This document shows, in pieces, positions 31,901 through 49,575 of a stretch of DNA of 64,000 bases. Every line of letters starts with the position of its first letter. The first letter of the stretch is position 1. Position numbers and translations under genes: made by a program. The stretch is from Chloroflexota bacterium (GTDB taxonomy: Bacteria; Chloroflexota; UBA11872), in contig JAJDZU010000024.1 of the NCBI GenBank assembly GCA_022824495.1, positions 186,001 to 250,000 of the forward strand, in the 5' to 3' direction. A model generated the notes under the pieces. That model was not told the DNA's origin. It saw only the letters and a list, made by a program, of their open reading frames with translations, and did no database searches.

Positions 31901-31929
31901 TTGCCGCGCGTACTCGTATAGAGTATAAT
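31901..31929 (+). promoter_or_regulatory. Promoter of the portal-terminase operon with inverted repeat
   Basis: TTGCCG and a consensus TATAAT are separated by exactly 17 bases and lie about 50 bases upstream of the portal start. The inverted repeat TACTC-GTATA-GAGTA (31911-31925) overlaps the spacer and -10 box. It resembles the CGTACTCTGTATA sequence beside the Xre gene at 36118-36130, so the Xre protein may repress here. Confidence 0.65.
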
Positions 31930-31979
31930 CGCCCCAGCTTGCCAGCGATGTCCCGTCGGTCCGGCCTGTCGGACCTGGA

Positions 31980-33707
31980 ATGGGACCTATGCCAGAGTCA
32001 GACGCGCAGCGCCCGCCGCCGAGCGAGGCGTATTTGCGTGAGCTTGAGGAACAACTGCTCGCCGAGTTCGGCGAGCGCAACGCCCGTATCGAACGCCTGC
32101 GCCGCCTGCGGCACATGGAACTGCCGGTGGACATCCCACCGGCCTATCGAACCAGCGCCCGCGAGGTGCGCACGCCGCTGGCGCGCGAGCAACTGAAACG
32201 GGTCATCGGCAGCCTGACGGCCAATCGCCCCCTGGTGCACGTGCCGCCGGCCGAACCAACCGAGGCCGCCCGCGCCGGCGCGGACCTGCGGGCGCGCTGG
32301 ACGAACTCCGCGTTGCGCCGCATGGACAGCGAGGCCGCGCGCGACGTGTTCGGCATGTTGATCGACGCCATGGTGGCGGATGGCGCCGGGGTGCTGAAGC
32401 TGCTCTACGCGCCGGACCGCTGGGCGGGCTATCCACGGCGCTCCGCCCAACCTGACGAATCGGCGGAAGGCTTTCTGCGCCGCGCCGAGCGCTTCAAGAA
32501 ATCCGCCCGCTTCCCGCTGGCCTGGCGCGATGTCGACGTCACCACCTTCTACCCGCTCGAAGGCGAGGACGGGCTGGAAGCCTGCCTGGAGATTGCCGAG
32601 CGTCCGCGCCACCTGGTGCAACGGCGCTACGGCCTGATCACCGACAAGCGCAGCGGACGCCTGGTCCCGCCCGGCGGCGACATCCGGGCCCTGGACACAC
32701 CTGGCGCGCAGCCGGATGCGCCCAATGCCGAGCCTCGCGCCACCGCCCGCGTCGTCGAGTACTGGGACCACGAATACTTCGCCTACCTGGTGGACGGTCA
32801 CCTGGTGCGCCGCGGCCGGCACGGCTACGGGGCCATCCCCTACGTCCACGCCTACGGCGACCAGACGCCCAGCCGCGATCCCGCCAAGGCCGGCGTCTCC
32901 ATGCTGGCCTCCATGGAATACCTGATCCCGCTGTTGGATCAGCTGCTGACCATGAAGCAGAACGCGCTGTTCCTCTACGCCTACCCCACGCCCAAGATCA
33001 CCAACTTCTCGCCCATCGACCCCAGCCTCAGCAACGACGGCCGCCCGCGCGCGCTGGACTTTCGCCCCGGCGAAATCCTGCCGCTCTACCAGGGCGAGGA
33101 CCTCACCTTCCTGCAATGGCAGGGCACCCCGCCCGACCTGGACGAACTGATCGCCCAGACCCGCGCCATGATCGACCAGGCCGGCGCCCCCAGCGTGCTC
33201 TTTGGCGTCCCGCCCGACGGCAACACCAGCGGCTACCTGCTCAACCAGCTCATCAACACCGCGCGCGTCTCGTTCCAGCAGGTCGCCCGGCACGCCGAGC
33301 AGGCGCTGGAGCGGATCGTGCGCCTGATGTGGCGGTTGGTGGAAACTCGCATCGGCGAAACCGTCTTCGTCTTCGAGGCCGAGGACGACCACGGCTGGAT
33401 CGGCCTGGGCCCGCAGGACATCGATGGCTACCACGCCGTCCGCGTGCGACTCGACCCGCTCGGTCCCGCCGACGACGTGGCCCAGGGCACCCTGGCCGCC
33501 AGCCTCGTCGGCGCCCGCCTCGCCTCCCGCCGCTGGGCCATGCGCGAAAAGCTGGGCATCGAAGACGCCGAAGCCGTCGAAGACGAAATCCTCCTCGACG
33601 AACTCATCGACGCCCCCGAAATCCGCTCCGCCATCGCCCGCGAAGCCCTCGGCCAGGCCGGATTACAACCCTCACCCACAGGGGAGGCGGCAGATGTCCA
33701 AGCGTGA
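31980..33707 (+). CDS. Phage portal protein
   Basis: The 575 residues have portal-family character. There is an N-terminal helical part (REQLKRVIGSLTANRPLV), a central beta region (YWDHEYFAYLVDGHLV, then PYVHAYGD), and the stem/clip segment MLASMEYLIPLLDQLLTMKQNAL. The long helix near SVLFGVPPDGNTSGYLLNQL precedes ARVSFQQVARHAEQALERIV. Portals form the dodecameric DNA gate of the capsid and dock the terminase. ATG 31989 is an alternative start. The gene is placed before the terminase genes, the reverse of the usual terS-terL-portal order. Confidence 0.82.
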   Translation: MGPMPESDAQRPPPSEAYLRELEEQLLAEFGERNARIERLRRLRHMELPVDIPPAYRTSAREVRTPLAREQLKRVIGSLTANRPLVHVPPAEPTEAARAGADLRARWTNSALRRMDSEAARDVFGMLIDAMVADGAGVLKLLYAPDRWAGYPRRSAQPDESAEGFLRRAERFKKSARFPLAWRDVDVTTFYPLEGEDGLEACLEIAERPRHLVQRRYGLITDKRSGRLVPPGGDIRALDTPGAQPDAPNAEPRATARVVEYWDHEYFAYLVDGHLVRRGRHGYGAIPYVHAYGDQTPSRDPAKAGVSMLASMEYLIPLLDQLLTMKQNALFLYAYPTPKITNFSPIDPSLSNDGRPRALDFRPGEILPLYQGEDLTFLQWQGTPPDLDELIAQTRAMIDQAGAPSVLFGVPPDGNTSGYLLNQLINTARVSFQQVARHAEQALERIVRLMWRLVETRIGETVFVFEAEDDHGWIGLGPQDIDGYHAVRVRLDPLGPADDVAQGTLAASLVGARLASRRWAMREKLGIEDAEAVEDEILLDELIDAPEIRSAIAREALGQAGLQPSPTGEAADVQA

Positions 33708-34005
33708 CCGGTTGGATCGACCTGGGGCGATTCAACTGCGAGTTCAGCGCCTGGTCCTGGGGCTGGCCCATCGAATCCGGTCGCGTCGCCTAGTCGGCGG
33801 CAACACCTCCGCGCCCGCGACGACAGAGGCCGGCGATCAGGTTTCTCGCGTTCATCGTCGGGCGGAGGCGCAGCTAGTCGGTCGGATTCGGCATCCCGCG
33901 CTGCACGCTCTCCTGCGCCGAATGTGGGCGGGCGGCAACGGGCGAGTCGGTGGCGAACGGGCTCGAGATCGAAACACGCGTCGAGGGAGCCGGACCCATG
34001 CCTGA
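33694..34005 (+). CDS. Small Arg-rich ORF after the portal gene, doubtful
   Basis: An ATG preceded by GGGGAGG opens 103 codons that overlap the portal stop by 14 bases and the next small gene by 8 bases, as expected in a compact phage operon. The translation is very rich in arginine and recognised by nothing I know. A 29-codon frame starting GTG 33705 (WIDLGRFNCEFSAWSWGWP) is an alternative. The region could also be untranslated. Confidence 0.35.
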   Translation: MSKRDRLDRPGAIQLRVQRLVLGLAHRIRSRRLVGGNTSAPATTEAGDQVSRVHRRAEAQLVGRIRHPALHALLRRMWAGGNGRVGGERARDRNTRRGSRTHA

Positions 34006-34228
34006 CGCTAGGCGGGACGCAAGCAGCGTGTTCGCCGAGCGTCTGACTGCCGCTGCGAACGCGGAATGTGAGTCCCTGTGCCAGACGATCATGGCCAAGG
34101 CGCGGTCCGGCGAGCGCTGGGCAGTGGAGTTGGTTGTGCGAAACGTCTTCGCGCGCCATGTCGACAGCGAGGACACGTTACAGACGTTGCTGGAGGAGAT
34201 TCGTGAACGCACGGCGCGCGACGCGTGA
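33998..34228 (+). CDS. Probable small terminase subunit
   Basis: A 76-residue helical protein (MPDARRDASSVFAERLTAA, ending IRERTARDA) starts at an ATG with GAGGGAG upstream and overlaps the large terminase start by 26 bases. Position directly before terL and the small helical make-up suggest the DNA-recognition terminase subunit, but it is shorter than typical TerS and no clear helix-turn-helix is visible. A GTG at 33950 would add 16 residues. Confidence 0.5.
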   Translation: MPDARRDASSVFAERLTAAANAECESLCQTIMAKARSGERWAVELVVRNVFARHVDSEDTLQTLLEEIRERTARDA

Positions 34229-35504
34229 TCTGCTGTGGGCGCGGGTGGGCTACGACCCGTCGGCGGCCCAGCGCGCGGCGCACGACTGTCCAGCACGGAT
34301 TCGCCTGATTGCCGGGGGCGAGCGGGCCGGCAAGAGTCGAAGCGCCGCCATGGAGCTCTTCGGCCGGCTGATCGAGGGGCGGCTCTACTGGCTGGTGGGT
34401 CCCGAGTACGATCTTTGCCGGCCGGAGTTCGAGTACTTGCTGGACGCCTGTCGGCGGATTGGCGCCGTGGCCTCGGTTCGGTATCCGGGCAGCAGCCGGT
34501 GTGAACTGATTACGCGCACCGGGGCGCGGATTGTCACGCGAAGCGCGCGTGAGCCGGAACGGCTGGCGGGCGAGGCACCGGACGGAATCCTGGGCTGCGA
34601 GGCCGCCCAGCTTCCGCCATCCGTGTTTCTGCGCTTGCGGGGACGAATCGCGGAACGGCGCGGCTGGCTGTGGCTGAGCGGAACCTTCGAAGGTTCGCGC
34701 GGCTGGTACGCGGACCGATTCCGCGCCTGGCAGCCGGCCGCGCGCGGGGATGCCCGGTCATTTTCGATCCCCTCGTGGGAGAACCGGGCGCTTTATCCGG
34801 GCGGCCGCGACGATCCCGAGATCGCGGAGTTGGAGGATCTGTTCCCTCCCGATCTCTTCATGGAGCGCTTTGGCGGTGTGCCGTGTCCGCCGTCCACGCT
34901 GGTCTTTCGAGAGTTCGATACGCGCGAACACGTGGACATCAAAGCGCGGGGTAGCGGCGCACCGGTGGAACTGGCGGTCGACCCGGGATACGCGGGGGCC
35001 TATGCGGTGCTGGCCATTGAGCAACGTGGGTCCGAGGTAGCGGTCATCGACGAGGTGTATCTGCGGCGGACGGTGGCGGGAGACGTAATCGCGGCCTGTC
35101 GGAAGCGACCGTGGTGGCCTCGAGTGCGTGGTGGGGTGATCGACGTGGCCGGCCGGCAGCACCATGCCGCACCGAGCCAGATAGAAGTTTGGGCCTCGCT
35201 GGCGGGCGTGCGGCTGCGCTCGCACTCGGTACCGTTGCGTTCGGGGATCGACCGCTTACGGACGTTCCTGCGGGACCCGGTCAGTGGGGACGCGCGCCTG
35301 ATCGTGGCGCCCGAGTGCACGAATCTGATTGAGGAGTTTGGGCTTTACCGCTACCACGAGGCGTCGGACCTGGAACCGATCTCGGAGATTCCGATCGACC
35401 GCGACAATCACGCGATCAAGGCGCTGACGTACTGGCTGTTCGACCGCTTTGGAGCCATTGAGCGGCCGCCGCGCCAGAGTATTCCGTTTCGGATTACTTG
35501 GTAG
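34203..35504 (+). CDS. Phage terminase large subunit
   Basis: A GTG start with GGAGGAGA upstream gives 433 residues. The ATPase has a Walker A-like GGERAGKS (38-45), the catalytic Glu133 in ILGCEAAQLP (Cys replaces the usual Asp of Walker B), and the coupling motif LSGTFEG. The RNase H-like nuclease domain supplies Asp260 (AVDPGY), Asp314 (VIDVAGR) and Asp399/Asp401 (DRDNHAIK). The enzyme cuts and pumps DNA through the portal. All key residues are present, so it may be functional. Confidence 0.85.
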   Translation: MNARRATRDLLWARVGYDPSAAQRAAHDCPARIRLIAGGERAGKSRSAAMELFGRLIEGRLYWLVGPEYDLCRPEFEYLLDACRRIGAVASVRYPGSSRCELITRTGARIVTRSAREPERLAGEAPDGILGCEAAQLPPSVFLRLRGRIAERRGWLWLSGTFEGSRGWYADRFRAWQPAARGDARSFSIPSWENRALYPGGRDDPEIAELEDLFPPDLFMERFGGVPCPPSTLVFREFDTREHVDIKARGSGAPVELAVDPGYAGAYAVLAIEQRGSEVAVIDEVYLRRTVAGDVIAACRKRPWWPRVRGGVIDVAGRQHHAAPSQIEVWASLAGVRLRSHSVPLRSGIDRLRTFLRDPVSGDARLIVAPECTNLIEEFGLYRYHEASDLEPISEIPIDRDNHAIKALTYWLFDRFGAIERPPRQSIPFRITW

Positions 35505-35538
35505 CGGAGATCAGGCCGAGCCGCGGCTAAGTCGGGGT

Positions 35539-36072
35539 TTAGTCGCTCGGCGAGTCCGCGTTGGCGTGGGCGCTGACGAGCAGGACGATGGGGTCGTCGT
35601 CGCCGGCGACGCTAATGCCCAGGCGCATGGAGCCGTCGTCGCCCAATTGCAGGTCCACAAAGGCCAGGCGGCTGGCGAGTTCGTCGACCGCGTCGTCGTG
35701 GTCTGCGAGGTCGGCAAGCTCGGCTTCGGTGTCGGCGGGGCCGGACTCGATCAGGACGCCGCCGGCGGTTGGGTCGATGTTGCGTCCCACGGGGCCGCGC
35801 CGAAGGGCCGCGACCATGGTGGTGGCGACGTCGCTGCCGGCGCGATCGGCGATGGCGGCCAGCGCAAAGGTCAGGCGGTCGGCTTCGAGAGCGTCGGCCA
35901 ACTCAAGGATGGCCTTGGCGGGCGGGGCGCGGCGTTCGCCTTTTTCCACGTGGCTGAGGAAGGAGTGCGATATGCCGCTGGCCTGGGCCAACTGCCGATA
36001 TGACAAGCCAGCCGCGCGGCGGGTGCTGTTCAGCACGGCCGCGAACCGTATCCCCTGCCGCGGTTCGCTCAT
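35539..36072 (-). CDS. Xre-family transcriptional regulator
   Basis: This 177-residue protein has an N-terminal Xre helix-turn-helix (LSYRQLAQASGISHSFLSHVEKG) and an acidic C-terminal domain of unknown fold. The start at 36072 has GAGGG upstream. It is the only gene on the minus strand within the head module, placed between terL and the gene at 36157, with divergent promoters and an inverted repeat between them. It probably represses the particle genes, like a lysogeny regulator. Confidence 0.82.
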   Translation of the reverse strand: MSEPRQGIRFAAVLNSTRRAAGLSYRQLAQASGISHSFLSHVEKGERRAPPAKAILELADALEADRLTFALAAIADRAGSDVATTMVAALRRGPVGRNIDPTAGGVLIESGPADTEAELADLADHDDAVDELASRLAFVDLQLGDDGSMRLGISVAGDDDPIVLLVSAHANADSPSD

Positions 36073-36081
36073 GTTGCCCTC

Positions 36082-36139
36082 ATTGTACCCATGGGGTTGA
36101 CAACCTGCCAACGAGTCCGTACTCTGTATAAGTACAGAG
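36082..36139. promoter_or_regulatory. Divergent promoters and Xre operator
   Basis: Minus strand: TTGGCA (36106-36111) and TACAAT (36082-36087) with an 18-base spacer serve the Xre gene. Plus strand: TTGACA (36097-36102) with TACTCT 17 bases later serves 36157. The inverted repeat CTCTGTA-TAAG-TACAGAG (36122-36139) covers the plus-strand -10 area and is the likely Xre operator. Confidence 0.6.
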
Positions 36140-36156
36140 GGCGTTGACGCCGGGGA

Positions 36157-36954
36157 ATGATGAATCAGACATCGCTGGCCTGGGCGGAATCCCCGGCGTT
36201 GACGCCCCCGTCACACAGAAAGGTTGACGTGCTGACAATTGAGCGCCATGACGGGCGCCTGATGCTTCTGGCCCGGACGCCGGGCCATGACGACGCGGCG
36301 ACGCACGGGTTCGCGAGCGCCGATCTCGAGGCGGCGCGAGACGCGGTGGCCCAGGCCCTGCGCGAGACCGATGCCGACCGATTTGAACGCGCCTGGACCA
36401 AAGCCGTGGCCGATTTGTCCCGTGGGACGGAAGTCTCGCCGGCTCTCCGACGCTACGTGAGCCAGCGTCTCGACGAGGAAGCCGTCCGGCGCGGACGGCT
36501 GCTGCGAGCGCACTGGCATTGCCCGCGCTGCGGCGCGCCGGGCAGCCAGTGGACCGCAGGCTGCCTGCGCGTTGCGTGTGACGAGCCTGCGCCGGAACGC
36601 CTGGCGCATTGGGACGTATGCCGGGCCGCCTCGGCCGACGAACTGCTGACGCTGATGGTGAGCGAAGGCTACGAGCGGATTGGCGCGCAAGTTCATGCGG
36701 CCCGTCTGCGCCGCCTTCGGTTCGACCTCACGTCGCTGCTGCGCGCGTGCCGCCCGGGTCTGGCGCGTCGACTGACGCGCTGGGCCGACGAAGCCGACGA
36801 GATTCACGCCGTGCGCGCGACGGAAATGCTGGACCTGGCAGCCAGGCTGGGAACCCGGATACACGCAGGACCCGATTCGACACCGGAGGCCGATCTGACA
36901 TCGGCCCTGACCAGCGCCCAGGTGCAGTCAATGGGCGCACCCGCGAAGGAGTAG
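36157..36954 (+). CDS. Zinc-ribbon-containing phage-cluster protein, unknown role
   Basis: This 265-residue protein is not recognised. The centre holds HWHCPRCGAPGS followed by two more cysteines (GCLRVACDEP), suggesting a zinc ribbon. Both flanks are helical and arginine-rich (FDLTSLLRACRPGLARRLTRW). Position between terL and the scaffold suggests a minor head or internal virion protein, or a DNA-binding factor. A start at GTG 36229 (VLTIERHDGR), with AAAGG upstream, is a credible alternative. The scaffold ATG follows its stop by 2 bases. Confidence 0.55.
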   Translation: MMNQTSLAWAESPALTPPSHRKVDVLTIERHDGRLMLLARTPGHDDAATHGFASADLEAARDAVAQALRETDADRFERAWTKAVADLSRGTEVSPALRRYVSQRLDEEAVRRGRLLRAHWHCPRCGAPGSQWTAGCLRVACDEPAPERLAHWDVCRAASADELLTLMVSEGYERIGAQVHAARLRRLRFDLTSLLRACRPGLARRLTRWADEADEIHAVRATEMLDLAARLGTRIHAGPDSTPEADLTSALTSAQVQSMGAPAKE

Positions 36955-36956
36955 GT

Positions 36957-37679
36957 ATGAGCAGCGATTCCCCCGAGGCGGCAACGCTGATCGGGACGGA
37001 CGGACCGGAAGCCATGAGCGCCGGCGAACGGATGGACGGCACGGATTCGACGGAGGCGTTTCAGACGGCGCTGGACGCGGAAGTGGCGCGGCGGATCGAG
37101 GCGGTGGAACGCCGCTGGCAGTCGCGCAAGGACCGCGAGTTGAACCGCGCGCGGCGGCGCTGGGAGTCGGAGGCCGGCCAGGCTATCGACCCGGACCTGC
37201 TGGCCTGGATAGCGCAGGCGGACTCGCAGGAGGTGGGCGACTGGCTGAAGGCGGGGCTGACGACGGGTCAAGCATCAGAGGCGCCGGTATCGAAGGCCGC
37301 GCAGGAGAACCAGGCAGTCCCCGCCGCGTCGAAGGAAACGTCCGACGCGGCCGCGGGATCAGACGTAGAGACCGAGGACTCGCAGCCAGGATCCGTGGAT
37401 GCCGGATCCGACGCGGTACCTGAGGAGGCTGGGGACCAGGAGGACGAGCAAGGCGACGCCGGGGAGACGGAGGCTGCCTCGCCGGCGCCGGACCTGGAGC
37501 GCGAGGCCGAGGCGCGGGAACGCCTAGCGGAACGGCGCAGCCTGGACCCCGCGCCCGACCTGTTTCCGAGCCGGGGGGCGCCAGCGGACGCGTTTCAGCA
37601 GATCGAGGCCGGGTTCGCCCGTGGCGAGGTTGATTTGGAGACCTATGAGACAGCCCGGCGGCGACGCGGGTTGACGTAG
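36957..37679 (+). CDS. Probable capsid scaffolding protein
   Basis: The ATG at 36957 has AAGGAG upstream. The 240 residues form a charged coiled coil (VARRIEAVERRWQSRKDREL) followed by an acidic low-complexity stretch (SDVETEDSQPGSVD, then EEAGDQEDEQGDAGE) and a C-terminal helical tail (LETYETARRRRGL). This pattern and its position match phage scaffolds that guide capsid assembly. In a typical phage the major capsid gene follows directly; here it is 5.7 kb away, beyond a terminator and cargo genes. Confidence 0.7.
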   Translation: MSSDSPEAATLIGTDGPEAMSAGERMDGTDSTEAFQTALDAEVARRIEAVERRWQSRKDRELNRARRRWESEAGQAIDPDLLAWIAQADSQEVGDWLKAGLTTGQASEAPVSKAAQENQAVPAASKETSDAAAGSDVETEDSQPGSVDAGSDAVPEEAGDQEDEQGDAGETEAASPAPDLEREAEARERLAERRSLDPAPDLFPSRGAPADAFQQIEAGFARGEVDLETYETARRRRGLT

Positions 37680-37705
37680 CAGGTTCCTGGCTGCCCGCTT
37701 TGGCC

Positions 37706-37747
37706 ACGCACACCGGCCCGGCGCCGAAGCGCCGGGCCGGTGTGCGT
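37706..37747. terminator. Strong 19-bp hairpin after the scaffold gene
   Basis: ACGCACACCGGCCCGGCGC and its exact complement enclose a CGAA tetraloop, 26 bases after the scaffold stop. This is the strongest stem in the window and probably ends the first particle operon. Confidence 0.75.
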
Positions 37748-37907
37748 ATTCAGGTGCGGCCACATTTGGAGGCGCTGCCCGTAGCCGAGCGACTATCGTG
37801 AGTCGACAACGGGTTGGCCGCCCGGCAGCCGGGCGCTGGCCGCGACGCGATACCCGTGCCGAAAGCTTGACGGCGGCCTAGTCTCAGAAGGGGAAGGGTG
37901 AACACTG

Positions 37908-38366
37908 ATGTCATCGGTTTCCAGAATTCACCCGTTTCTGTGGTTCGATGGTCGGGCCGAGGAAGCGGCGAGGTTCTACGTGTCGATCTTCCCGAACTCG
38001 AGGGTCGTGCACGTGGAAGAGATCTCGACGGGGCCGGCCGAGGGCGGGGCGATCGTGGAGTTTGAGCTGGAGGGTCAGCGATTCGGCGGGGTTGACGGCG
38101 GGCCGATGTACAGCTTCACGCCGGCAGTCTCGTTTGTGGTGGAGTGCGAGACGCAGGACGAGATCGACTACTACTGGGAGCGGCTGTCGGACGGTGGGCG
38201 GACGCAGCCGTGCGGCTGGCTTGTGGACCAGTTCGGCCTCTCGTGGCAGGTCTTACCGGCCGGACTCTCGGAGATCATGGAGCCGGCGCCCCAGGCGGTG
38301 ATGGAGGTGCTGCTGGGGATGTCGAAGATCGAGATTGAGGGATTGCGGCGAGCGGCAGAGGGATAG
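37908..38366 (+). CDS. VOC-superfamily protein (PhnB-like)
   Basis: A 152-residue protein with the paired beta-alpha-beta-beta-beta units of the glyoxalase/vicinal oxygen chelate fold. Signatures are IHPFLWFDGRAEEAARFY, SIFPNSRV, and the late CGWLVDQFGLSWQVLP typical of PhnB/3-demethylubiquinone-methyltransferase-like proteins. Enzymatic activity is not known for most of this subgroup. GGGAAGGG lies upstream of the ATG. It is a cellular-type gene and begins the cargo block inside the phage cluster. Confidence 0.82.
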   Translation: MSSVSRIHPFLWFDGRAEEAARFYVSIFPNSRVVHVEEISTGPAEGGAIVEFELEGQRFGGVDGGPMYSFTPAVSFVVECETQDEIDYYWERLSDGGRTQPCGWLVDQFGLSWQVLPAGLSEIMEPAPQAVMEVLLGMSKIEIEGLRRAAEG

Positions 38367-38443
38367 TCCGGACGACATAGCCGATCTACGTGCTATTCGG
38401 TGCATTTTTTCGACACTCAGGCGTGTTGGCAAACTACACGTAC

Positions 38444-38632
38444 ATGGAGCTGTCAGTTCGGCGGATCAGACGGCGGCTGGAGCGGGAGGGCTGGTATTTG
38501 CAGCGGCATGGATCGAGCCACGACACTTATCGCCATCCGCGTGTGACCGGCATTATCGTGGTGCCGCGACACCGCACGGTTTCTCCCGGAGTGGCTCGTT
38601 CCATCGCCAAGCAGGCTGGGTGGGAGGAGTAG
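38444..38632 (+). CDS. hicA: HicA-type mRNA interferase toxin
   Basis: The 62 residues (MELSVRRIRRRLEREGW) carry the HicA core with RHGSSHDTYRHP, in which the histidine after GSS is the catalytic residue, and IIVVPRHRTVSPGVARSIAKQAGW. HicA cleaves mRNA until bound by HicB. ATG 38444 is chosen over a GTG 54 bases upstream because it gives the usual length. No Shine-Dalgarno is visible. hicB follows after 6 bases. Confidence 0.82.
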   Translation: MELSVRRIRRRLEREGWYLQRHGSSHDTYRHPRVTGIIVVPRHRTVSPGVARSIAKQAGWEE

Positions 38633-38638
38633 GTAGGG

Positions 38639-39031
38639 ATGGCCAGGTATCCAGCACTGATCGACGGGACGAAGGGCGCGTACGGGGTTGTGTTCCCCGA
38701 CCTCCCCGGCATCGTGGCCATGGGCGCCACGGTGGAGGAGGCGATGCTGAACGCTGAAGCGGCGCTTCAGGATGCCGCGCTCGAGGCCGAGCGGGATGGT
38801 ATCGCGCTGAATCTTCCCAGCGCCCTGGAGGATGTGGACGTGCCGTCCGGAAGCGCCCTGTCGTCGATCCTCCTGGTCCGTGCTGCTCCGACGCGACGCA
38901 GTGTTCGTCTCAATCTCACACTGGACGCTGCGATCGCCGACGTCATCAGATCCGAGGCGGAGCGGCGCGGCATGTCTCGCAAGCGCTATGTGGAGTGGAT
39001 GACGCGTCGAGTGGCTCAGGTCGGGGGCTAA
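38639..39031 (+). CDS. hicB: HicB-type antitoxin
   Basis: The 130 residues have the HicB partial RNase-H fold at the N-terminus (YGVVFPDLPGIVAMGATVEE) and a C-terminal ribbon-helix-helix-like DNA-binding part (LDAAIADVIRSEAERRGMS). GGAGGAG precedes the ATG. It neutralises HicA and probably represses the pair. HicAB pairs are frequent cargo of prophages and islands, fitting this position. Confidence 0.83.
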   Translation: MARYPALIDGTKGAYGVVFPDLPGIVAMGATVEEAMLNAEAALQDAALEAERDGIALNLPSALEDVDVPSGSALSSILLVRAAPTRRSVRLNLTLDAAIADVIRSEAERRGMSRKRYVEWMTRRVAQVGG

Positions 39032-39260: not shown

Positions 39261-39704
39261 CTAGTCGCGGCTCATCTTTTCGCCGACGGCGCGCCAGAGG
39301 TAGAGGCCGGCGCTGCCGGCAACCCAGGTAAACAGCACGTCCATCCAGGGAAAGTGGTTGAGGTGGGACTGGGCGGCCATGCCGGTTTCAGTCTCCGGGA
39401 ACAGCGTCCAGAGCCAGTTCCAGTAGAAGATGATGATGAGGCCCGTGGCTCCGAGGAAGAGGGCGGTGGCGCCCAGGTACTCGCGGGTGACGGGGTCGTT
39501 GGGGCCGCCGTTGAGGCTGCGGACGCGGTGGAAGCTGATGAGGAGCGCAATGACCACGGCCACGGCCATGAACCAATTCATCACCTGCCAGACGGGATAG
39601 GTTTCGCCGCCGTCGTGGTAGACGGGAGTGAGCATGAGGTTGAGTCCGACGGCGACGGCGAGAACGATGAGGGCAACGGCGACGACGCGACGAACCTGAT
39701 CCAT
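39261..39704 (-). CDS. Four-segment membrane protein
   Basis: The start at 39704 (MDQVRRVVAVALIVLAVAVG) has GGAGTGG upstream and yields 147 residues with four hydrophobic segments: near residues 5-25, 42-60, 78-98 and 119-138. A conserved-looking loop GGETYPVWQVMNWFM lies between the first two, and a short charged tail ends the protein. I do not recognise the family. Such small membrane proteins are common in Chloroflexota. It may act with the small helical protein encoded just downstream. Confidence 0.65.
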   Translation of the reverse strand: MDQVRRVVAVALIVLAVAVGLNLMLTPVYHDGGETYPVWQVMNWFMAVAVVIALLISFHRVRSLNGGPNDPVTREYLGATALFLGATGLIIIFYWNWLWTLFPETETGMAAQSHLNHFPWMDVLFTWVAGSAGLYLWRAVGEKMSRD

Positions 39705-39784
39705 CTGGCCACTCCGAGTCAGATGACGATGATCTATCCGATTTCCGCTTATTCGGGAGCGTAGCACCGCGCCCTTTTTTGGGC

Positions 39785-41414: not shown

Positions 41415-42803
41415 CTAGCCGGTGGGCCCAACCGGGTTGGGGTACGTGAGCCAGTTATTCGCCCCGTTTCCGGTAAACGCGAACTGCACTTCGCCTCCGG
41501 CGTAAATCGTGGCGTCACCGGCAAAGCCATTGCTGAAGCCGATCCCGCGGACATTGCGCATCGCCAGGCTTGCACTGAGGTGGCTCCAACTTCCCGGCGC
41601 TCCGATGTCGTCCACGGTTCCCAGACGCTGACTGCGCTTGCTCATGTAGAAGCCACGAAGCTGGGTGCCCGCTGCAATGGTCCCATCGCGGGTGACGTTG
41701 GGCGAGAGGGTGATCACGTTGATTCGGCCTAGCTCATTGTCCCGGCCCCGTGGATTGTGAAGCACGTTCTCAAAGTGAGCACCGCCGTCTTCCGAACGAT
41801 AGATGCCCAGCGATTCGGTACCCAGCCAGACGACGCGGTCGTAGTTCCATTCGGGATGCACTGCGAGGGCTGTGATCTTGAGATGCCGTGGCAGCGCGTT
41901 ATTGCCCAGTATTGACCGGAAGTTCCGCCCACGGTTATCGCTTACGAAGACGTTGTCAACGGTCCACGAGAAAATGTGGATCCTGTCGCCGCGTCCCTGA
42001 ACCGCGACCAGACCGAGGTAGGTCGACGCGGGTTGGCCATTTGCCGGGGTCGTGGATATGGTCGACCAATTCGCGCCACCATCCGTTGACTGGAATAGTG
42101 TTCCCGTGTCTGCAAGGGCGTAGAAGGTCCGGTCGGATGCAAATCGCGGCGATGCCGCGATAGCACCGAACCGAACCGCCGGCAGGCCTGCAGCGGTTGA
42201 CCAGGTCGCTCCGCGGTCGCCCGAACGGCCGATCCCAAGGTTCGTGGCGGCCAGCACCACGCCGTCGGCCGACACCGCGGGCGATGGTGCGATGGCATTG
42301 ATCGTCAGGTTTGGAAGCCCGATCGTCGACTGCGTGAAACTTCTTCCGGCGTCTCCCGATCGGAGGACGCCACCGGTGGTGGTTCCCAGCCAGATGGTGT
42401 TGTCCTGGAAGACAAGCGGCGACGCCGCGACAACCGAAATCTCGCCGATGGGCGCCGAACCGGGCATCGGCGCCGGTGCAGGCGCCGGTGCCGGAGCAGG
42501 AGCTGGCGCCGGAGCTGGGACTGGCGTCGGGATGGCCCACGCGAAGGTGCCCTGGACATCGGAACGGTGCTCGCGTTGGCAGGCCTGCTCGGCCTGGTCG
42601 CCGAAGACGCGCTGGTAGATGCCGACGTTTTGGTTGTTGCCCAAGTGGGCCTCGACAATGTCGTTGAGCTCCACACAGCTTGTGGGCCATTGAGCCAGGG
42701 CCGGCGCGGCGGTGAACACCAGCGCCAAAGCTGCGGCCAGGGCCGCGACGGCAAGAATTGCGCGGAACGTGATGTGGCCGAGGAATGCGTGCATAGCCGG
42801 CAT
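41415..42803 (-). CDS. Secreted BNR/sortilin-type beta-propeller protein
   Basis: The 462 residues begin with a signal peptide (about 1-38, ending ALAQ). A small domain with CVELNDIVEAHLGNNQNV follows, found in many Chloroflexota exoproteins, then a Pro-Ala linker and a propeller with repeated Asp-box-like blades (SGDAGRSFTQS, SGDRGATWSTA, STDGGANWSTI, SEDGGAHFENV). It probably binds glycans or proteins outside the cell; sialidase catalytic residues are not evident. GGAGG precedes the ATG. Confidence 0.72.
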   Translation of the reverse strand: MPAMHAFLGHITFRAILAVAALAAALALVFTAAPALAQWPTSCVELNDIVEAHLGNNQNVGIYQRVFGDQAEQACQREHRSDVQGTFAWAIPTPVPAPAPAPAPAPAPAPAPMPGSAPIGEISVVAASPLVFQDNTIWLGTTTGGVLRSGDAGRSFTQSTIGLPNLTINAIAPSPAVSADGVVLAATNLGIGRSGDRGATWSTAAGLPAVRFGAIAASPRFASDRTFYALADTGTLFQSTDGGANWSTISTTPANGQPASTYLGLVAVQGRGDRIHIFSWTVDNVFVSDNRGRNFRSILGNNALPRHLKITALAVHPEWNYDRVVWLGTESLGIYRSEDGGAHFENVLHNPRGRDNELGRINVITLSPNVTRDGTIAAGTQLRGFYMSKRSQRLGTVDDIGAPGSWSHLSASLAMRNVRGIGFSNGFAGDATIYAGGEVQFAFTGNGANNWLTYPNPVGPTG

Positions 42804-42913: not shown

Positions 42914-42942
42914 TTGCGGGGTGTGCGCGATATGTGTACAAT
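42914..42942 (+). promoter_or_regulatory. Promoter of the capsid operon
   Basis: TTGCGG and TACAAT are separated by exactly 17 bases, about 400 bases upstream of the capsid start. The first downstream coding sequence is the capsid gene, leaving a long leader. Confidence 0.55.
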
Positions 42943-43001: not shown

Positions 43002-43233
43002 GGGGCTACGGCGGCGCAGGTTGGGTAATTCGATTTCGCCAAGCGGCGTGAGGCAATGGTTCATTGCCCACCCGCGGGCGGGACCTCGACAACCCCGGCA
43101 ACCGCGTCATCGCAGCCCAGCGCGCTTGCGTGGAGCAGGGGGCGGCGGATTCGCACATCGCCCGATAGGACATCGGGTTCGGTGCGCAGCCGCCGCCCCC
43201 GGAGGCCGGAAGTTCGACTCCGGAGCTCCACGA
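43002..43233 (+). ncRNA. Structured leader RNA of the capsid operon (candidate)
   Basis: The untranslated leader contains a nested hairpin. The outer arms GGGGGCGGCGG (43138-43148) and CCGCCGCCCCC (43190-43200) pair perfectly, then CGCAC with GTGCG, then CCCGAT with ATCGGG around an AGGAC loop. A second hairpin with CCGGA/TCCGG and loop AGTTCGAC follows at 43206-43223. GGGGCT (43002-43007) can pair with AGCTCC (43224-43229), closing a 232-base domain. It may be a packaging RNA, a translational control element or an independent RNA. No known family is recognised. Confidence 0.4.
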
Positions 43234-43346
43234 GACCGAGTGCCGGCGAAGCGCGGTTTCGCCGACCGAGCGCCCACACGGGGCGTCCTACAGCTGACCA
43301 GACGTCACGAGCGCCGCGCATTGGCAGGCGCTCCGGAGGAGACGCA

Positions 43347-44201
43347 GTGGCGATAACGAAGAGCGATTCAATCGGCGACGTGGTGGACACCGTGATTGCG
43401 GAAGCCCGTCGCACGCAGATGCACCGCACGGTGATGGAACCGCTGGTGCGGACCTATCGGGTGCCGCGCGGGGCCGGCGACCGCCTGGAGATTCCCAAGT
43501 TCGGCACGGTGTCGGCGGCCGCTCTGACCGAGGGCGTGGACATGACCAACCCGCAAACGCTGACCACCAGCAAGGTCACGATTACGCCGGCCGAGGTGGG
43601 CGCGCAAATCGTACTGACCGACCGGGCGCTGCGCACGGCCAAGGAAGACATGGCCCGGGCGGCCGGGCGGGTGCTGGGCGACGCGATCGCCCGCAAGCTG
43701 GATGCGGACCTGCTTGGCCTGCTGGACAGTTTCAGCGCGTCGCTGGGCGGGGCTGGCCAGAACATTTCGATGGGGCATTTGCGAGCCGCGGTGTCGCGGT
43801 TGCATGGAGCGACCGAGCCGGCCCCGCAGCCGTTCCACGCGGTGCTGCACCCGTATCAGGCGCACGACCTGGCGGCGGACATTTCGCCCACGGGCACCTA
43901 CCCGGTGCCGGCCGGCATCTCGCAGACGGTGCTGGAAAACCACTGGGTGGCGCGCGCGTTCGGCGTGGATGTCTTCCAGGCCGGAAACCTGGCGGTGGAC
44001 AGCAGCGACGACGCCAAGGGCGCGGTGTTCTCGAAAGAGGCGCTGGTGCTGGTGATGTTCAAGGACTGGGCGGTGGAGCGCGAGCGCGACGCCTCGCTGC
44101 GGGCCTGGGAACTGAATGTCGTGGCGGACTACGGCCTGGGCGAATACGCGGACGCCTGGGGCGTGGAGATGTACTTCGACGCGTCCACCCCGTCCAGCTA
44201 A
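43347..44201 (+). CDS. Phage major capsid protein
   Basis: The GTG at 43347 has GGAGGAG upstream; the open frame extends further 5' but that part is not protein-like. The 284 residues show capsid-type features: an N-terminal helix (VVDTVIAEARRTQMHRTVME), PKFGTVSAAALTEGVDM, a spine helix (DAIARKLDADLLGLL), and HAVLHPYQAHDLAADIS with the C-terminal VFSKEALVLVMFKDW seen in N4-gp56/HK97-fold major capsid proteins. It would form the shell around the portal. Its own promoter and leader are 5' of it. Confidence 0.78.
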   Translation: MAITKSDSIGDVVDTVIAEARRTQMHRTVMEPLVRTYRVPRGAGDRLEIPKFGTVSAAALTEGVDMTNPQTLTTSKVTITPAEVGAQIVLTDRALRTAKEDMARAAGRVLGDAIARKLDADLLGLLDSFSASLGGAGQNISMGHLRAAVSRLHGATEPAPQPFHAVLHPYQAHDLAADISPTGTYPVPAGISQTVLENHWVARAFGVDVFQAGNLAVDSSDDAKGAVFSKEALVLVMFKDWAVERERDASLRAWELNVVADYGLGEYADAWGVEMYFDASTPSS

Positions 44202-44233
44202 GGCTGGGCGATTCCAGGAGGAGGCAGCGGCAC

Positions 44234-44488
44234 ATGCACGCTCCCATCATCTGGATCAGGCGCCGCCCCAGGCGGCGCCTGATCCACCGTTTTCCTGGCG
44301 TCGCGGGCGGACGCCAGATTCTGGTGATTTCGCCCGATCGCCAGGAAGCGCAGGAAACCGCGCTGGCCATGCGCGAGCGCCAGGCAGCGCGGCTGCACGA
44401 CCACGGCACAGCAGACTTAGAGGCGCTGGACTCGCAGCGATCGGGCTGGGGTCGGCGCGGCGCCGAGCCCTCGGAGGCCGGCCGATGA
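44234..44488 (+). CDS. Small basic phage-cluster protein
   Basis: This 84-residue protein (MHAPIIWIRRRPRRRLIH) has GGAGGAGG upstream of its ATG and a stop that overlaps the next start (ATGA), so it is translated as part of the head operon. The N-terminus is basic, and the middle (RQEAQETALAMRERQAARL) is helical. Its position, directly after the capsid, suggests a decoration or head-completion protein. No homologue is recognised. Confidence 0.5.
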   Translation: MHAPIIWIRRRPRRRLIHRFPGVAGGRQILVISPDRQEAQETALAMRERQAARLHDHGTADLEALDSQRSGWGRRGAEPSEAGR

Positions 44489-45705: not shown

Positions 45706-48084
45706 ATGCCACGCGGCACCCGCCCTCCCTATCCCTACGACTGCAGCGTGGCCGGCGTCGGCCTGATGCTGAGCCAACGCTCGGGTGCGGAGATCGCCTG
45801 GCGCGAACGCAAGCTGGATTTCTTCGCGCCGCGCGTCAGTCAGACGGACCAGTCCTATGCGCAGTTCCCGCCGGAAGACGAAACGACCTGGGCCGTGGAC
45901 GACTTTTCGGGCGGATACGGCCAGCGGGTCGTGCCGCGCGGCGGATCGAACGCGTACGCCGACGGCGTGGCCGATACGCGCATCCCGCATCAGGTCACGC
46001 TGCCACCCGAAATCCTGACCACGCCAATCACCGCGTCAGGGACCATTACCGACCACTTTGAACTGGGCGACACCACCTACGTGCTGGCGGGTCCGGCCGT
46101 GTACCGATCGCGGGACGGCCGGACGTGGACCCTGGCCAAGGCCTTTGAACCCGGCGTCACGGCTCGCTCGGCGGCGGTCTTCAAAGGGCGCGCGGACCGG
46201 CCGATGGCCTTCGTGGCCGTCGGCGGCACAGGGGCCGACGAGCCCTTCTGGACCTTTGACGGCTCAACCTGGGCGCAGCACCCGGGCCAGCGCGAACGAC
46301 CCGCGGCGGTCTTGCGAACCGGCGACGGCGGCCTGACGTACGCCGATCTGACGGCCGCCGTGAGCGACGGAGACCCAGGCACCTACGGGCACCTGGACTC
46401 GCTCGGAGCGGTGACCGACGGCGCCTGGCTGCTGATTGGCGGCAAGGCGCCGTTCGCGTCCATGGCCGTCGAGATGAACGTCGCCGCCAACAGCAACGCC
46501 GCCGAGGTTACGGCGGAGTACTGGAACGGTTTGGCCTGGACAACCGTCCGCGGACTGCGTGACGGCACGGCCCAGGATGGCAAGACCCTGGCTCGTGACG
46601 GTGACGTGAGCTTTCGCGAGCCGACCGACTGGCAGCTCACGGCCATAAACGACGTCGAGGCGTTTTGGCTGCGGTTAACCGTGGCCTCGGCGCTGGACTC
46701 GTCGACTCGCGTCAACGAACTCGCCGTTCACGAGGTCCGCAAGGCCGAGGCCTTCCGGGTGGTCGGTTCGGAATTAGCGCGGGTGAGCAGCGAGAGCGGC
46801 GCGCCCATGCTGTCGACCTCGGTGGACGGCGGTGTGGATTCCACCTGGACGGATGGCATCCCCGTAGGTGACGGAGCATCTGGCATCACCGCGCTACAGA
46901 GCCTGGGCCATACGGCTTTTCTGGTGAAAGCGGATGGCCTATACGCGCTGCGCCCGGGCGCCGACACCGGCGCGGTCGTGGATCACGCGTGGTCGTTGCC
47001 GGTGCGAGAGGACAGCCCCTATAACGGGCGCGGGGCCTCGGTTTGGCGCGGCCACCTGTGGTTGCCGCTGCCGCACGGACTCTTCCGGTACCGGCCCGGC
47101 GAGTTGACGCCGTCGGGTCCGGAGCGCCTGCGCGCAAGCAGTTCGCCGATCCGCGGACGCGTGACGGCCTGCGCGGGCGACGCCAACTTTCTCTACGCGG
47201 CGCTGCGAGAGGAGACCGGCCACGTCACGCTGCTGGCGCTCAACCCGGACGCGGATAGCTGGCACCCACTGGCGCGCCTGGGGCGGGTGGAGTGTCGCCA
47301 CATGTGGGTCTCGGACCGGCCGGGCCCCAATCCGCGGCTCTATATCGCGATTGACGGATCGCTGGCGGCCATGGTGCTGCCGCGTGCTTCCGCCAATCCG
47401 CTGCACGACCCGAATTGCCGGTATGCCAGCACCGCGGAACTGACGCTCTCGCGGTTCGACGCGGGCTTCGCAGCCCAGCCGAAGGCGTTCCTGGCGCTGG
47501 CCCTGAGCGGCGAGCGCCTGACGTCGTCGACGTGGGTGGACGCGTTCTACCGACACGGCGACGGCGCATCGTTCCGGCAACTCGGACGCTTCGCCGCCGA
47601 TGGCCAGCGCATTGAGTTTGGACCGGAAGCCGCGGCGACGGCCATCGACCTTCGTCTGACGCTGCACACGGACGACCCGACAACGTCGCCGGTAATTCAC
47701 GCCGCATCCCTGGCTTACGCGGTGCGCGCGGACTTCAAACGGGTGTTTGATTTCGTGGTTCGGATTGCGGACCAGACACCGCTGCGGGACGGGCGACGCG
47801 ACCGGCGGTCGGGTCGCGAAGTCAAGCTCGCGATCGCGGCTGCCGCGGCCACGCGCGAGCCCGTGGTGCTGGTCAGCCCGGACGGCGAGCACGTGGAGGC
47901 GTTGGTACGCGGCGCCGAAGCCCAGGCCCGACGCAGCGAGGCCGGTCGCGACCTGGAATGGCTGATGCCCGTGACAGCCACCGAAAACCGGCCGACCGCC
48001 GGCACGGGCACGCACAACCGACTGGCGGCCTATGCCCACCAGGCCCAGGCCGCCTATCTGCATAGCCAACTCGCCAGGCTCTAG
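45706..48084 (+). CDS. Large beta-rich virion protein, propeller-like
   Basis: The 792-residue product starts directly after the TAA of its neighbour with GGAGG upstream. It has an N-terminal domain (DDFSGGYGQRVVPRGG, then ANAYADGVADTRIP-like residues) and repeated blades such as YVLAGPAVYRSRDGRTW, AFLVKADGLYALRPG and GHLWLPLPHGLFRYRPG. These suggest a beta-propeller as in tail or adhesion proteins of podovirus-like particles. The end is helical (AYAHQAQAAYLHSQLARL). Role inferred from position: tail tube adaptor or host-recognition protein. Confidence 0.55.
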   Translation: MPRGTRPPYPYDCSVAGVGLMLSQRSGAEIAWRERKLDFFAPRVSQTDQSYAQFPPEDETTWAVDDFSGGYGQRVVPRGGSNAYADGVADTRIPHQVTLPPEILTTPITASGTITDHFELGDTTYVLAGPAVYRSRDGRTWTLAKAFEPGVTARSAAVFKGRADRPMAFVAVGGTGADEPFWTFDGSTWAQHPGQRERPAAVLRTGDGGLTYADLTAAVSDGDPGTYGHLDSLGAVTDGAWLLIGGKAPFASMAVEMNVAANSNAAEVTAEYWNGLAWTTVRGLRDGTAQDGKTLARDGDVSFREPTDWQLTAINDVEAFWLRLTVASALDSSTRVNELAVHEVRKAEAFRVVGSELARVSSESGAPMLSTSVDGGVDSTWTDGIPVGDGASGITALQSLGHTAFLVKADGLYALRPGADTGAVVDHAWSLPVREDSPYNGRGASVWRGHLWLPLPHGLFRYRPGELTPSGPERLRASSSPIRGRVTACAGDANFLYAALREETGHVTLLALNPDADSWHPLARLGRVECRHMWVSDRPGPNPRLYIAIDGSLAAMVLPRASANPLHDPNCRYASTAELTLSRFDAGFAAQPKAFLALALSGERLTSSTWVDAFYRHGDGASFRQLGRFAADGQRIEFGPEAAATAIDLRLTLHTDDPTTSPVIHAASLAYAVRADFKRVFDFVVRIADQTPLRDGRRDRRSGREVKLAIAAAAATREPVVLVSPDGEHVEALVRGAEAQARRSEAGRDLEWLMPVTATENRPTAGTGTHNRLAAYAHQAQAAYLHSQLARL

Positions 48085-48095
48085 GAGGGCGCGAC

Positions 48096-49148
48096 ATGGC
48101 AACAACCACGGCAAACCTGCGGCTGACCAAGCCGCTGGGCGCCGAGCGATACGACATCAACGTGTTCAACAACAACGCCGATCTGATCGACGCCGTCTTC
48201 CACGCCTTGACCGGGCACGGTCACTCCGGCAGGGCGGGCGAAGGCCCGCAACTGACGGCGGCGGCGCTGGCCGCTGGCGCGGTGACGACCGACAAGCTGG
48301 CGCCGGACAGCTTTCACGCCGAACAGTTTCACAACGCGCTGCCCAATGCTGGTTTCGAGTCGTGGTCAGGCGGCGGGACGGGTGCGCCGGACGGCTGGAC
48401 GCTGTCGGGTGCTAATGCCCAGGTTGCGCGTTCCACGTCGGTCGTGAAGCACGGACGTTATGCGGCCTCGCTGACGCGGCGGGGCGTCGACTGCGATCTG
48501 CGCCGCGGCCTGGCCGACGATCTGGGCGGGCTGCCGTATCTGCGGGGGCGGACGTTCACCCTGGGCGGTTGGGTCTACGCGACAGTTCCCAATCGAGCGC
48601 GGCTGGAATTGGGCGACGGCGTGACCACGTCAATCTCGGCTTACCACTCGGGCAGCTCGGCCTGGGAATGGCTGACCGCGACGATCGTCGCGGATAGCGC
48701 GGCGCCGGCGCTGCTGGCGCTCTGCAAGCTCAAGCAGGGCGACACCTCGGCCTGGTTCGACGGGCTGCAGGTCGCCGAGGGCACGCTTGCGCCCGCGTTC
48801 GCTCCAAACCCGACGGACGAGGCGCTGCGCCTCACCAACTTCCAGGACAGTACGCCCGCCAACCACGTGGACCGGGGGCAGTGGCGGGCGGAGGTTGGCG
48901 TGGCCTCGGTGGCGGGCGTGACCGCGCAGAACTGGTCAGACCTTGACGTGACGTTCGAGACGGCCTTCCGCACGGTCTACGCGGCTCTGGCCACGCCGCG
49001 CGAGGATATTGGCGGCCGCCGCGCGATTGCGCGCTGCACCAACCTGCGCGTCGCCGGCTTCACCCTGCAGGCCGCCACCGCGGACGCGCGCACTTTCAGC
49101 AGCACCACGCCGGGCCTGGTCTATTGGCTGGCGATTGGAGCGGTGTAA
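48096..49148 (+). CDS. Tail-fibre/receptor-binding-like protein
   Basis: The 350 residues begin with a tail-attachment motif (NLRLTKPLGAERYDINVFNN, then ADLIDAVF) seen in many short tail fibres. A carbohydrate-binding-module-like jelly roll follows (NAGFESWSGGGTGAPDGWTL). A C-terminal domain (WSDLDVTFETAFRTVYAAL) resembles the gp53/H-lectin-like caps of phage fibres. GGAGGG precedes the ATG. This is the best candidate for host-surface binding by the particle. Confidence 0.65.
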   Translation: MATTTANLRLTKPLGAERYDINVFNNNADLIDAVFHALTGHGHSGRAGEGPQLTAAALAAGAVTTDKLAPDSFHAEQFHNALPNAGFESWSGGGTGAPDGWTLSGANAQVARSTSVVKHGRYAASLTRRGVDCDLRRGLADDLGGLPYLRGRTFTLGGWVYATVPNRARLELGDGVTTSISAYHSGSSAWEWLTATIVADSAAPALLALCKLKQGDTSAWFDGLQVAEGTLAPAFAPNPTDEALRLTNFQDSTPANHVDRGQWRAEVGVASVAGVTAQNWSDLDVTFETAFRTVYAALATPREDIGGRRAIARCTNLRVAGFTLQAATADARTFSSTTPGLVYWLAIGAV

Positions 49149-49489
49149 TGGGAATCGCCGACCAGCCCAACTCAATGGAGCCGAATCCGCTCGACGTGCC
49201 GGCCGACGCATACCCCGGCCTTTCCATCAACCCCACAAAGGAGGCAAACGCCTTGGAACCAGAAACCATTGGCATCATCACGGCCGTGACCGTGTACATC
49301 GCGCGCGTGGTGCGCAACGAGATGGTGCGTTGGCGCAGCCGCGCCCGCGGCACCGACACCGAAACCCGCGCGTTACAACTGCTGGAGAACATTGACCGGG
49401 GCCTGGCGACGCATCACACCGAAATGACGCGCTACCAAGCCTCGATTGCAGATTCGCTGGGCCAGATTAAAGGCCGGCTGGCGGCGTAG
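49148..49489 (+). CDS. Holin-like single-span protein, two possible starts
   Basis: From ATG 49148, overlapping the previous stop (TAATG), the frame encodes 113 residues. An internal TTG at 49253 has a perfect AAAGGAGG 8 bases upstream and would give 78 residues (MEPETIGIITAVTVYIARVV). The shorter product has one membrane segment followed by a charged coiled coil (ALQLLENIDRGLATHHTEM), a holin or spanin-like layout. Two products from one frame, as with dual-start phage holins, is possible. No endolysin accompanies it. Confidence 0.55.
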   Translation: MGIADQPNSMEPNPLDVPADAYPGLSINPTKEANALEPETIGIITAVTVYIARVVRNEMVRWRSRARGTDTETRALQLLENIDRGLATHHTEMTRYQASIADSLGQIKGRLAA

Positions 49490-49534
49490 GCCAACCCGGC
49501 GGACGGCGCAGCCACGCCGCACGCCCGAGTCTCG

Positions 49535-49575
49535 AGCAGTCGCCCTGGCTAACGGCCGAAGCCAGGGCGACTGCT
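49535..49575. terminator. Bidirectional hairpin ending the particle cluster
   Basis: AGCAGTCGCCCTGGCT and its exact complement form a 16-bp stem with a 9-base loop, 45 bases after the last particle gene and 1 base from the convergent host gene stop. It marks the right edge of the cluster. Confidence 0.75.

Follow-up and report, generated by a model that had tools for sequence, protein, structure and literature searches.

A stretch of 64,000 nucleotides from a Chloroflexota bacterium (GTDB lineage UBA11872; assembly GCA_022824495.1, contig JAJDZU010000024.1, positions 186,001 to 250,000; hereafter the window), which belongs to a genome of 3.37 Mb and 93.5% completeness, carries a cluster of phage-type genes spanning 17.5 kb (window positions 31980-49489), with further loci in related genomes. 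We conclude that this cluster is probably a domesticated, and probably short-tailed, viriform of independent origin that resembles gene transfer agents (GTAs), and that it has probably been held in one Chloroflexota family since before the split of the two genera of that family. This reading is favored because the comparison among related genomes proposed in the original prediction, which had been made from the window sequence alone, found a family-wide single copy with conserved gene order and flanks, a low ratio of nonsynonymous to synonymous substitution (dN/dS) and congruence with the host gene rpoB at family depth, and because the proposed search for attachment-site repeats, made in the window, found none that bracket the cluster. 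The inheritance and the anatomy of the cluster are directly observable in the genomes compared, and DNA transfer is what we infer. The phage-type cluster of the original prediction is real, while its description as head-only and devoid of lysis genes was partly wrong.

The capsid gene was found as a single copy in 18 of the 19 genomes of the host family, G012 included (G denotes genomes, C contigs, and L loci or virus contigs); the sole family genome without a match, G007, is 76% complete. None of the 381 other genomes in a 400-genome sample of the phylum, in which only candidates from a loose first pass were scored, showed a capsid match. The large terminase (TerL) was detected in 18/19 host-family genomes, including 15/15 with a completeness of ≥90% and a contamination of ≤5%, and in 0/5 sister-family genomes. 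As G012, whose cluster stops at a contig end without TerL, matched solely through a second terminase copy, a resident TerL is shown in 17 genomes. Twelve genomes of the phylum sample from outside the family gave TerL matches of 25-44% identity; in G231 the TerL match (44%) lies beside large genes, with no capsid match listed. A scan of named genomes yielded 15 loci, all in metagenome assemblies titled Chloroflexi or Chloroflexota.

We called genes and ran profile searches on 22 contigs from 18 genomes, which revealed a common order in both genera, i.e., portal, small terminase (TerS) and TerL, followed by a variable zone with a sulfatase gene and then by capsid-44234-44485-45706-48096 (genes without a name are designated by their start position in the window), with a shorter form of 48096 in the sister genus; contig breaks hide parts of this order in several genomes, and TerS was not called in some. 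The sulfatase gene was present in 18/18 genomes with a capsid gene, with two exceptions in placement: in G009 it is located on another contig than the capsid gene, and in G003, where the capsid half is inverted and located approx. 40 kb from the portal gene, it stays with the packaging half. Within the limits of the sequence retrieved, the genus-core flank 3' of the cluster comprises tsaC and genes 58003 to 63371; of these, tsaC, 58003, 58976, 60331 and 63371 also lie close by in G003 and G005, the two genomes of the sister genus that were tested, and genes 60331, 61388 and 63371 are located on the portal side instead in G018. Portal proteins are 89-97% identical to that of the window in the seven genus-core relatives where they were found, 77% identical in G018 and 65-67% identical in the sister genus (the identity table leaves out hits with a query coverage of <45% and, within the genus, TerL hits of <66% identity, which represent second copies). 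Half a cluster resembling that of the sister genus was observed on contig C24 of G011 (L104), which is probably foreign, as G011 is 8% contaminated.

To estimate dN/dS, we compared the window with as many as seven genus-core genomes by the Nei-Gojobori method, leaving out alignments covering <60% of a gene and the host gene 58976, whose coordinates gave stop codons. Phage-type genes overall showed values of 0.02-0.39 in the genus core, with open frames, and are thus under purifying selection. Values were lowest for capsid (0.019-0.085), followed by TerL (0.063-0.115), portal (0.065-0.152), 44485 and 45706 (0.145-0.241), 48096 (0.14-0.262) and the scaffold-like gene (0.211-0.386); host genes showed 0.01-0.35 (ten genus-core genomes). 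As in the original prediction, which had argued against simple decay, such decay is contradicted by the low dN/dS and the open frames. Patristic distances of portal, capsid, 45706, sulfatase and TerL correlated with those of rpoB at family depth (r = 0.94-0.95 in 15-18 genomes; P = 0.001, 999 permutations), a correlation driven by the deep splits; the numbers of splits in common with rpoB were 3/12, 5/15, 8/13, 6/15 and 7/14, respectively. Judged from these trees, the cluster is old and vertically inherited at family depth.

A capsid alignment search of IMG/VR returned 22 loci (33-44% identical), and the nearest named phages by capsid are Pelagibacter phages (34-36%). In a capsid tree, the root of which is arbitrary and in which some virus capsids sit on long branches, the 18 family capsids formed one group apart from 19 virus capsids (88/91; 87% of 200 bootstrap trees). 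No close free virus was found in the collections searched (IMG/VR and INPHARED), with relatives reaching at most 44% identity in capsid; the best identities in INPHARED were 36% for capsid, 30% for TerL and 25% for 45706, and a search of IMG/VR with 45706 for a free phage of the same species gave 8 stretches that matched the pattern, none of which was confirmed.

The absence of a tail, as originally predicted, was not borne out. In five virus contigs (L158, L160, L161, L162 and L165), the capsid gene is followed by consecutive genes that match the 44485 and 45706 profiles (E 4e-7 to 1e-17); the 45706 matches (E 1e-10 to 1e-17) lie directly after the 44485 homologue in all five. These contigs represent approx. 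two lineages, because the L160-L162 capsids are near-identical and that of L158 is close to them; several other virus contigs end before the post-capsid region. A head-only particle was set aside in view of this synteny. Among 10 proteins of L158 and L165, most of them without any match, no tail-tube or tape-measure family was found; L158 encodes an endolysin (phrog_9611, E 3e-7). PhageMin_Tail matched in only 3/19 family genomes (7/14 named genomes matched as a control), and a long tail of that family is therefore not conserved. Protein 44485 carries a carbohydrate-binding-like insert, which is absent from its sister-genus counterparts, and the shorter sister-genus homologue of 48096 matches the tail-fibre family phrog_892 (8e-9). 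A PDB profile match of 45706 to 9efk "orf18" (E 7e-5, 97 residues, six chains) was not used, as no paper was found for the entry. Overall, a short tail appears likelier than none.

Lysis genes, which the original prediction had also declared missing, are represented in the window by a holin-like gene and in relatives by a lysin. Five sister-genus genomes and G018 encode an M23+SLT protein at the cluster end (PF01551 1.4e-12, PF01464 3.6e-12), beside small membrane proteins, and a second locus in nine genus-core genomes encodes a lysin with 74-76% identity to that of G002 (as one protein of 633-652 aa in seven; cut by contig ends in two). The N-terminal part of the genus-core lysin (e.g., L096:7710-9668), which to our own reading looks like a glycosidase (no Pfam match), resembles the preceding gene of the sister genus, where the two are separate genes. 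Six second-locus lysins have common neighbors, labelled c28, c23 and c37; strong lysin matches were not found in G000, G001, G007 and G009.

Within the window, family matches confirmed the portal, TerL, Xre-family and capsid genes; the genes for portal, TerS, TerL, capsid and the adaptor-like, tail-like, fibre-like and holin-like proteins are all intact. The predicted absence of integrase, replication, tape-measure and endolysin families held among the 30 window proteins scanned. Among direct repeats of at least 18 nt in the window there was no perfect one and none that brackets the cluster. The predicted scaffold gene is scaffold-like by position and composition, with no useful family match; genes 44485, 45706 and 48096 likewise have no confident family match in the window, and synteny with virus contigs points to their role in the virion. 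The cargo between the two halves was recovered as described (37908-42803; PhnB-like, HicAB, membrane protein, sulfatase and BNR-repeat protein). Toxin-antitoxin-like cargo varies among genomes, with HicAB in the window and PIN-domain-like genes (by eye) at L036:9219-9874 and L049:10100-10498. The strong terminator claimed after the scaffold gene is a hairpin with no T-run and was not listed by our terminator scan, which found 11 sites as compared to 8.3 expected by chance, including 44252-44286. The new promoter claimed before the capsid gene was not listed by the scan either, but its TACAAT is aligned in 7/8 genus-core capsid leaders (TACACT in G011); no match was found in the leaders of G018 or of the sister-genus genomes G006 and G002. 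An ARAGORN call of a tRNA-Arg (ccg) at 36830-36922 (-) was judged false, as it sits inside open reading frame (ORF) 36157. A methylase-like gene is located upstream of the cluster (window 24101-25582; Eco57I 3e-6, N6_Mtase 6e-6).

Downstream, the cluster is adjoined by a partner-switching operon (two STAS proteins, RR-STAS, RR-SpoIIE, an RsbW-like ATPase, a periplasmic-binding protein and a histidine kinase). It follows the cluster in 9/9 genus-core genomes with the flank in hand (the window included; G010 and G017 fall outside this count), cut short by the contig end in G008; no such operon was detected in the flanking sequence retrieved for G018, G003 and G005. As a lead, this operon is a possible regulator of the cluster.

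Table 1. Features of the phage-type cluster and its surroundings (window coordinates)
Feature	Position	Strand	Basis
Promoter-like TTGCCG-17-TATAAT before portal gene	31901..31929	+	consensus match only
Portal protein	31980..33707	+	phrog_156 E 3.5e-5
Small terminase-like protein (TerS), at most 92 aa	33950..34228	+	position; upstream of TerL in both genera
Large terminase (TerL)	34203..35504	+	phrog_2 E 3e-23; solved phage terminase 4znj E 3.6e-9
Xre-family regulator, genus core only	35539..36111	-	HTH_31 9e-13
Conserved 265-aa protein of unknown function, genus core only	36157..36954	+	
Scaffold-like acidic protein, genus core only	36957..37679	+	position and composition
Perfect 17-bp hairpin with no T-run, 3' of scaffold-like gene	37707..37746	+	sequence
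PhnB/3-demethylubiquinone-methyltransferase-like cargo gene	37908..38366	+	PF06983 1.3e-38
HicA-HicB toxin-antitoxin pair, cargo slot	38450..39031	+	HicA 4e-15, HicB 4e-13
Membrane protein, cargo	39261..39764	-	no family above cut-off; kept in genus core
Sulfatase, between packaging and capsid halves, both genera	39785..41245	-	PF00884 3.5e-39
BNR-repeat (sortilin-like) secreted protein, cargo	41415..42803	-	PF15902 5.5e-9
Promoter-like TTGCGG-17-TACAAT in capsid leader	42914..42942	+	leader alignment
Major capsid protein, HK97-type	43347..44201	+	Pfam Phage_capsid_4 3e-10; phrog_544 1e-11
Short conserved ORF	44234..44488		overlaps hairpin 44252-44286
16-bp terminator-like hairpin after capsid gene	44252..44286	+	hairpin scan
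Adaptor-like structural protein, 406 aa	44485..45705	+	CBM_4_9 E 0.026 (below cut-off); virus-contig profile matches
Tail protein, 792 aa, putatively nozzle-like	45706..48084	+	profile matches in 5 virus contigs
Fibre/adhesion-like protein	48096..49148	+	Gp53-like_C E 0.012 (below cut-off)
Holin/XhlA-like small membrane protein	49148..49489	+	by eye; no family match
Partner-switching operon adjoining cluster, possible regulator	51085..57983	+	family matches

TerS (at most 92 aa) has no Pfam match, and no DNA-binding domain was recognised in it; in G015 and G011 it has 46-52% identity to the window protein, as compared to 91-95% for portal. Restriction-modification genes lie beside TerL in three genomes (a type IIG/ISP enzyme-methyltransferase in G008 and G011; an N6-methylase in G014), and a 462-aa gene, for which the one copy tested (G009) gave no Pfam match, is found in the vicinity of TerL in two genomes (G009 and G017) and on the side of the Xre gene in two others (G015 and G012). 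Seven genus-core genomes have a second TerL (64-66% identical to that of the window), in 7/7 cases with its own TerS (L052:13702-15169 on G000:C4, with equivalents in L055, L072, L053, L054, L070 and L071); gene calling around these pairs, as far as sequence was retrieved, gave no capsid gene. The second terL copies show a mutual dS of 0.14-0.41 and dN/dS of 0.115-0.355, and the G000 copy adjoins a type IIG enzyme and a PLD-helicase. Restriction-modification or defence-type genes near either terS-terL copy were observed at L052:4675-7752, L052:9932-13426, L044:551-3934, L060:117-935 and L041:18162-19127. TerL 3'-end fragments of 52-62 codons occur in G000 downstream of the second copy and, more decayed, on another contig; the fragments observed (G000:C4:10227-10412 and 13012-13167, G000:C10:85121-85285, G015:C43:82-291) start at approx. 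codons 364-383, which may point to a site of recombination or integration within terL. G013 has four distant sulfatase genes close together at L067:5147-13533, approx. 14-22 kb away from its second terminase copy.

Several observations weigh against a GTA-like viriform. The system is known here from its genes. Compared to G018 and the sister genus, phage-type genes showed dN/dS of 0.15-0.60 with dS near saturation, and no homologue of the Xre gene, 36157 or the scaffold-like gene was recognised in these genomes. The assembly that contains the window yielded no M23+SLT lysin; as the usual lysin neighbor is also missing from this genome, an assembly gap is as likely as loss. All six virus contigs listed encode, before the scaffold-like gene, a protein of 1,291-1,658 aa with no counterpart here, and DNA ejection therefore lacks an explanation; this protein went undetected in the 19 genomes in a search that used a very divergent alignment and had no positive control. 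Within the genus core, moreover, distances of the cluster genes agree poorly with those of rpoB (r = 0.19-0.51; P = 0.006-0.187), and dS values differ among genes. In G013 and G010, cluster dS agrees with that of host genes (0.10-0.33 vs. medians of 0.24 and 0.23; host alignments covering <60% of a gene or of <60% identity were left out). In G008, G009, G012 and G014-G017, where host medians are 0.66-0.72 (2-14 genes; only 2 in G017), dS is host-like for 45706 (0.67-0.84 where measured) and below that of the host for capsid (0.23-0.38) and for portal (0.31-0.38 where found), for which either interspecies recombination or constraint on synonymous sites would account. G011 is mixed (rpoB 0.36, upstream flank 0.15-0.29, downstream flank mostly 0.4-0.8, capsid 0.23, portal 0.24). 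Conversely, terL dS to the window is 1.12 in G014, 1.38 in G015, 1.49 in G008 and 1.97 in G011, as compared to host medians of 0.49-0.71 in these four genomes and rpoB values of 0.89 in G014, 0.90 in G015 and 0.36 in G011; terL looks to have been exchanged in these genomes. It is near rpoB (0.87-0.92) in G016, G017 and G009 (0.88-0.97) and matches the host in G013 and G010. A terL exchange in G016 and G017 was rejected, as terL dS there (0.97) is near rpoB (0.92 and 0.87) and the low values are those of portal and capsid.

The original prediction had offered three options, i.e., a GTA-like particle, a satellite or a decaying prophage, for a structure whose head-only character is unsupported; the first is the one we favor. 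A domesticated virion retained for a use other than DNA transfer, i.e., an empty or protein-carrying particle with, e.g., a bacteriocin-like role or a role in interaction with an animal host, would draw on the same presence and selection data; the carbohydrate-binding-like insert, the fibre-like protein and the conserved central sulfatase could fit surface interactions, and the large pre-scaffold protein of the virus relatives is missing. We nevertheless consider such a virion unlikely, because a DNA-free particle should need neither of the terminases that are kept, i.e., the intact TerL, which is under strong purifying selection, and the second terS-terL pair in seven genomes.

That the cluster is an ordinary old prophage or a phage satellite, frequent in the family and still moving between species, seems to us quite improbable. 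Virus relatives do exist, the low portal and capsid dS in seven genus-core genomes and the high terL dS in four speak in its favor, and the restriction-modification inserts indicate local gene traffic; but a presence in 18/19 family genomes, with flanks in common, as compared to 0/381 others is not sporadic, the window shows neither bracketing repeats nor, among the proteins scanned, an integrase or replication family, and the family-depth congruence with rpoB stands against it as well. A satellite similar to phage-inducible chromosomal islands (PICIs) depends on a helper and has no major capsid or terminase set of its own, whereas this cluster has its own portal, TerL and capsid genes. A decaying prophage with genes on their way out, to which the missing large protein, the scaffold gene unrecognised in the sister genus and the TerL fragments elsewhere in the genome could be attributed, is highly improbable given the open frames and the low dN/dS of the phage-type genes across the genus core and given that identity between the genera is 84-86% for capsid, as compared to 78% for rpoB.

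If the cluster is a GTA-like viriform, the host would switch it on, perhaps via the partner-switching operon and, in the host genus, the Xre protein. The portal-TerS-TerL genes and the capsid and tail operon would then make small heads, into which a TerS with no DNA-binding domain might allow host DNA to be packaged unspecifically; a short tail, with 44485 as adaptor and 45706 as a nozzle-like protein, would bind relatives by its fibre and carbohydrate-binding parts, and the M23+SLT lysin and the small membrane protein would lyse the producer cell. It is tempting to speculate further, although we give the idea little credence, that the packaging motor is an exchangeable, contested module, with the terS-terL islands acting as "GTA satellites" that steer particle packaging by means of their own terminase, including the packaging of defence genes, and with terL (and terS in two species) having been replaced by divergent alleles in four species. 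If true, terL exchange beside restriction-modification genes would make a conflict over packaging specificity testable.

As defined in PMC9662315, GTAs consist of caudoviricete-derived proteins encoded by a fully endogenised genome, often at several loci, and are mostly vertically inherited; they package mostly random host DNA into a head too small for the whole genome and deliver it to other cells. The family matches of TerL, portal and capsid indicate caudoviricete-derived proteins, the cluster lies between host flanks, with a second-locus lysin in 9/19 genomes (none found in the window's assembly), and its inheritance is vertical at family depth only. The small TerS with no recognised DNA-binding domain is only suggestive of random packaging of host DNA, and the cluster should not be filed as a GTA until packaged host DNA and its delivery have been shown. 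Among the matches listed on gene transfer agents or prophages with Chloroflexota, Chloroflexi or sponges, no paper title reports such a cluster; record titles suggest sponge samples as the origin of the host bacteria. Our data suggest that this family carries a previously unreported virus-derived particle, which may move DNA between cells.

Among viruses, the IMG/VR contigs L158, L160, L161, L162 and L165 have the capsid-44485-45706 order in common with the cluster; the six virus contigs listed differ from it by the large pre-scaffold protein. The Pelagibacter phages HTVC111P and HTVC026P resemble it in capsid (34-36%), but HTVC111P has TerL before portal, the reverse of the cluster order, and an annotated tape measure protein. 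Among GTAs, PMC9662315 describes that of Rhodogtaviriformidae (RcGTA and relatives, Alphaproteobacteria) as a largely vertical, slowly evolving caudoviricete-derived cluster at more than one locus, much like the cluster described here, and notes that known GTA genes are often dispersed over loci. A partner-switching system is reported to affect RcGTA production (PMC3999984), and one adjoins the Chloroflexota cluster; the latter differs in belonging to another phylum, in having no recognised long-tail genes and in being split by a sulfatase and other cargo. Bartogtaviriformidae (BaGTA) and Brachygtaviriformidae (BhGTA) are similarly independently exapted clusters kept in a host lineage, and the BhGTA genome is likely dispersed, with early B. 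henselae particles described as tailless or short-tailed (PMC9662315); they differ in their hosts and in that their particles and DNA have been studied, while the Chloroflexota cluster is known from genes. PMC9662315 classifies three independently exapted GTA groups with an established genetic basis, and PMC11841831 states that the prevalence of GTAs is unknown, as their bioinformatic detection is difficult. A family-wide Chloroflexota cluster, identified through its pattern of inheritance and not through homology to known GTAs, would add a further origin of GTAs.

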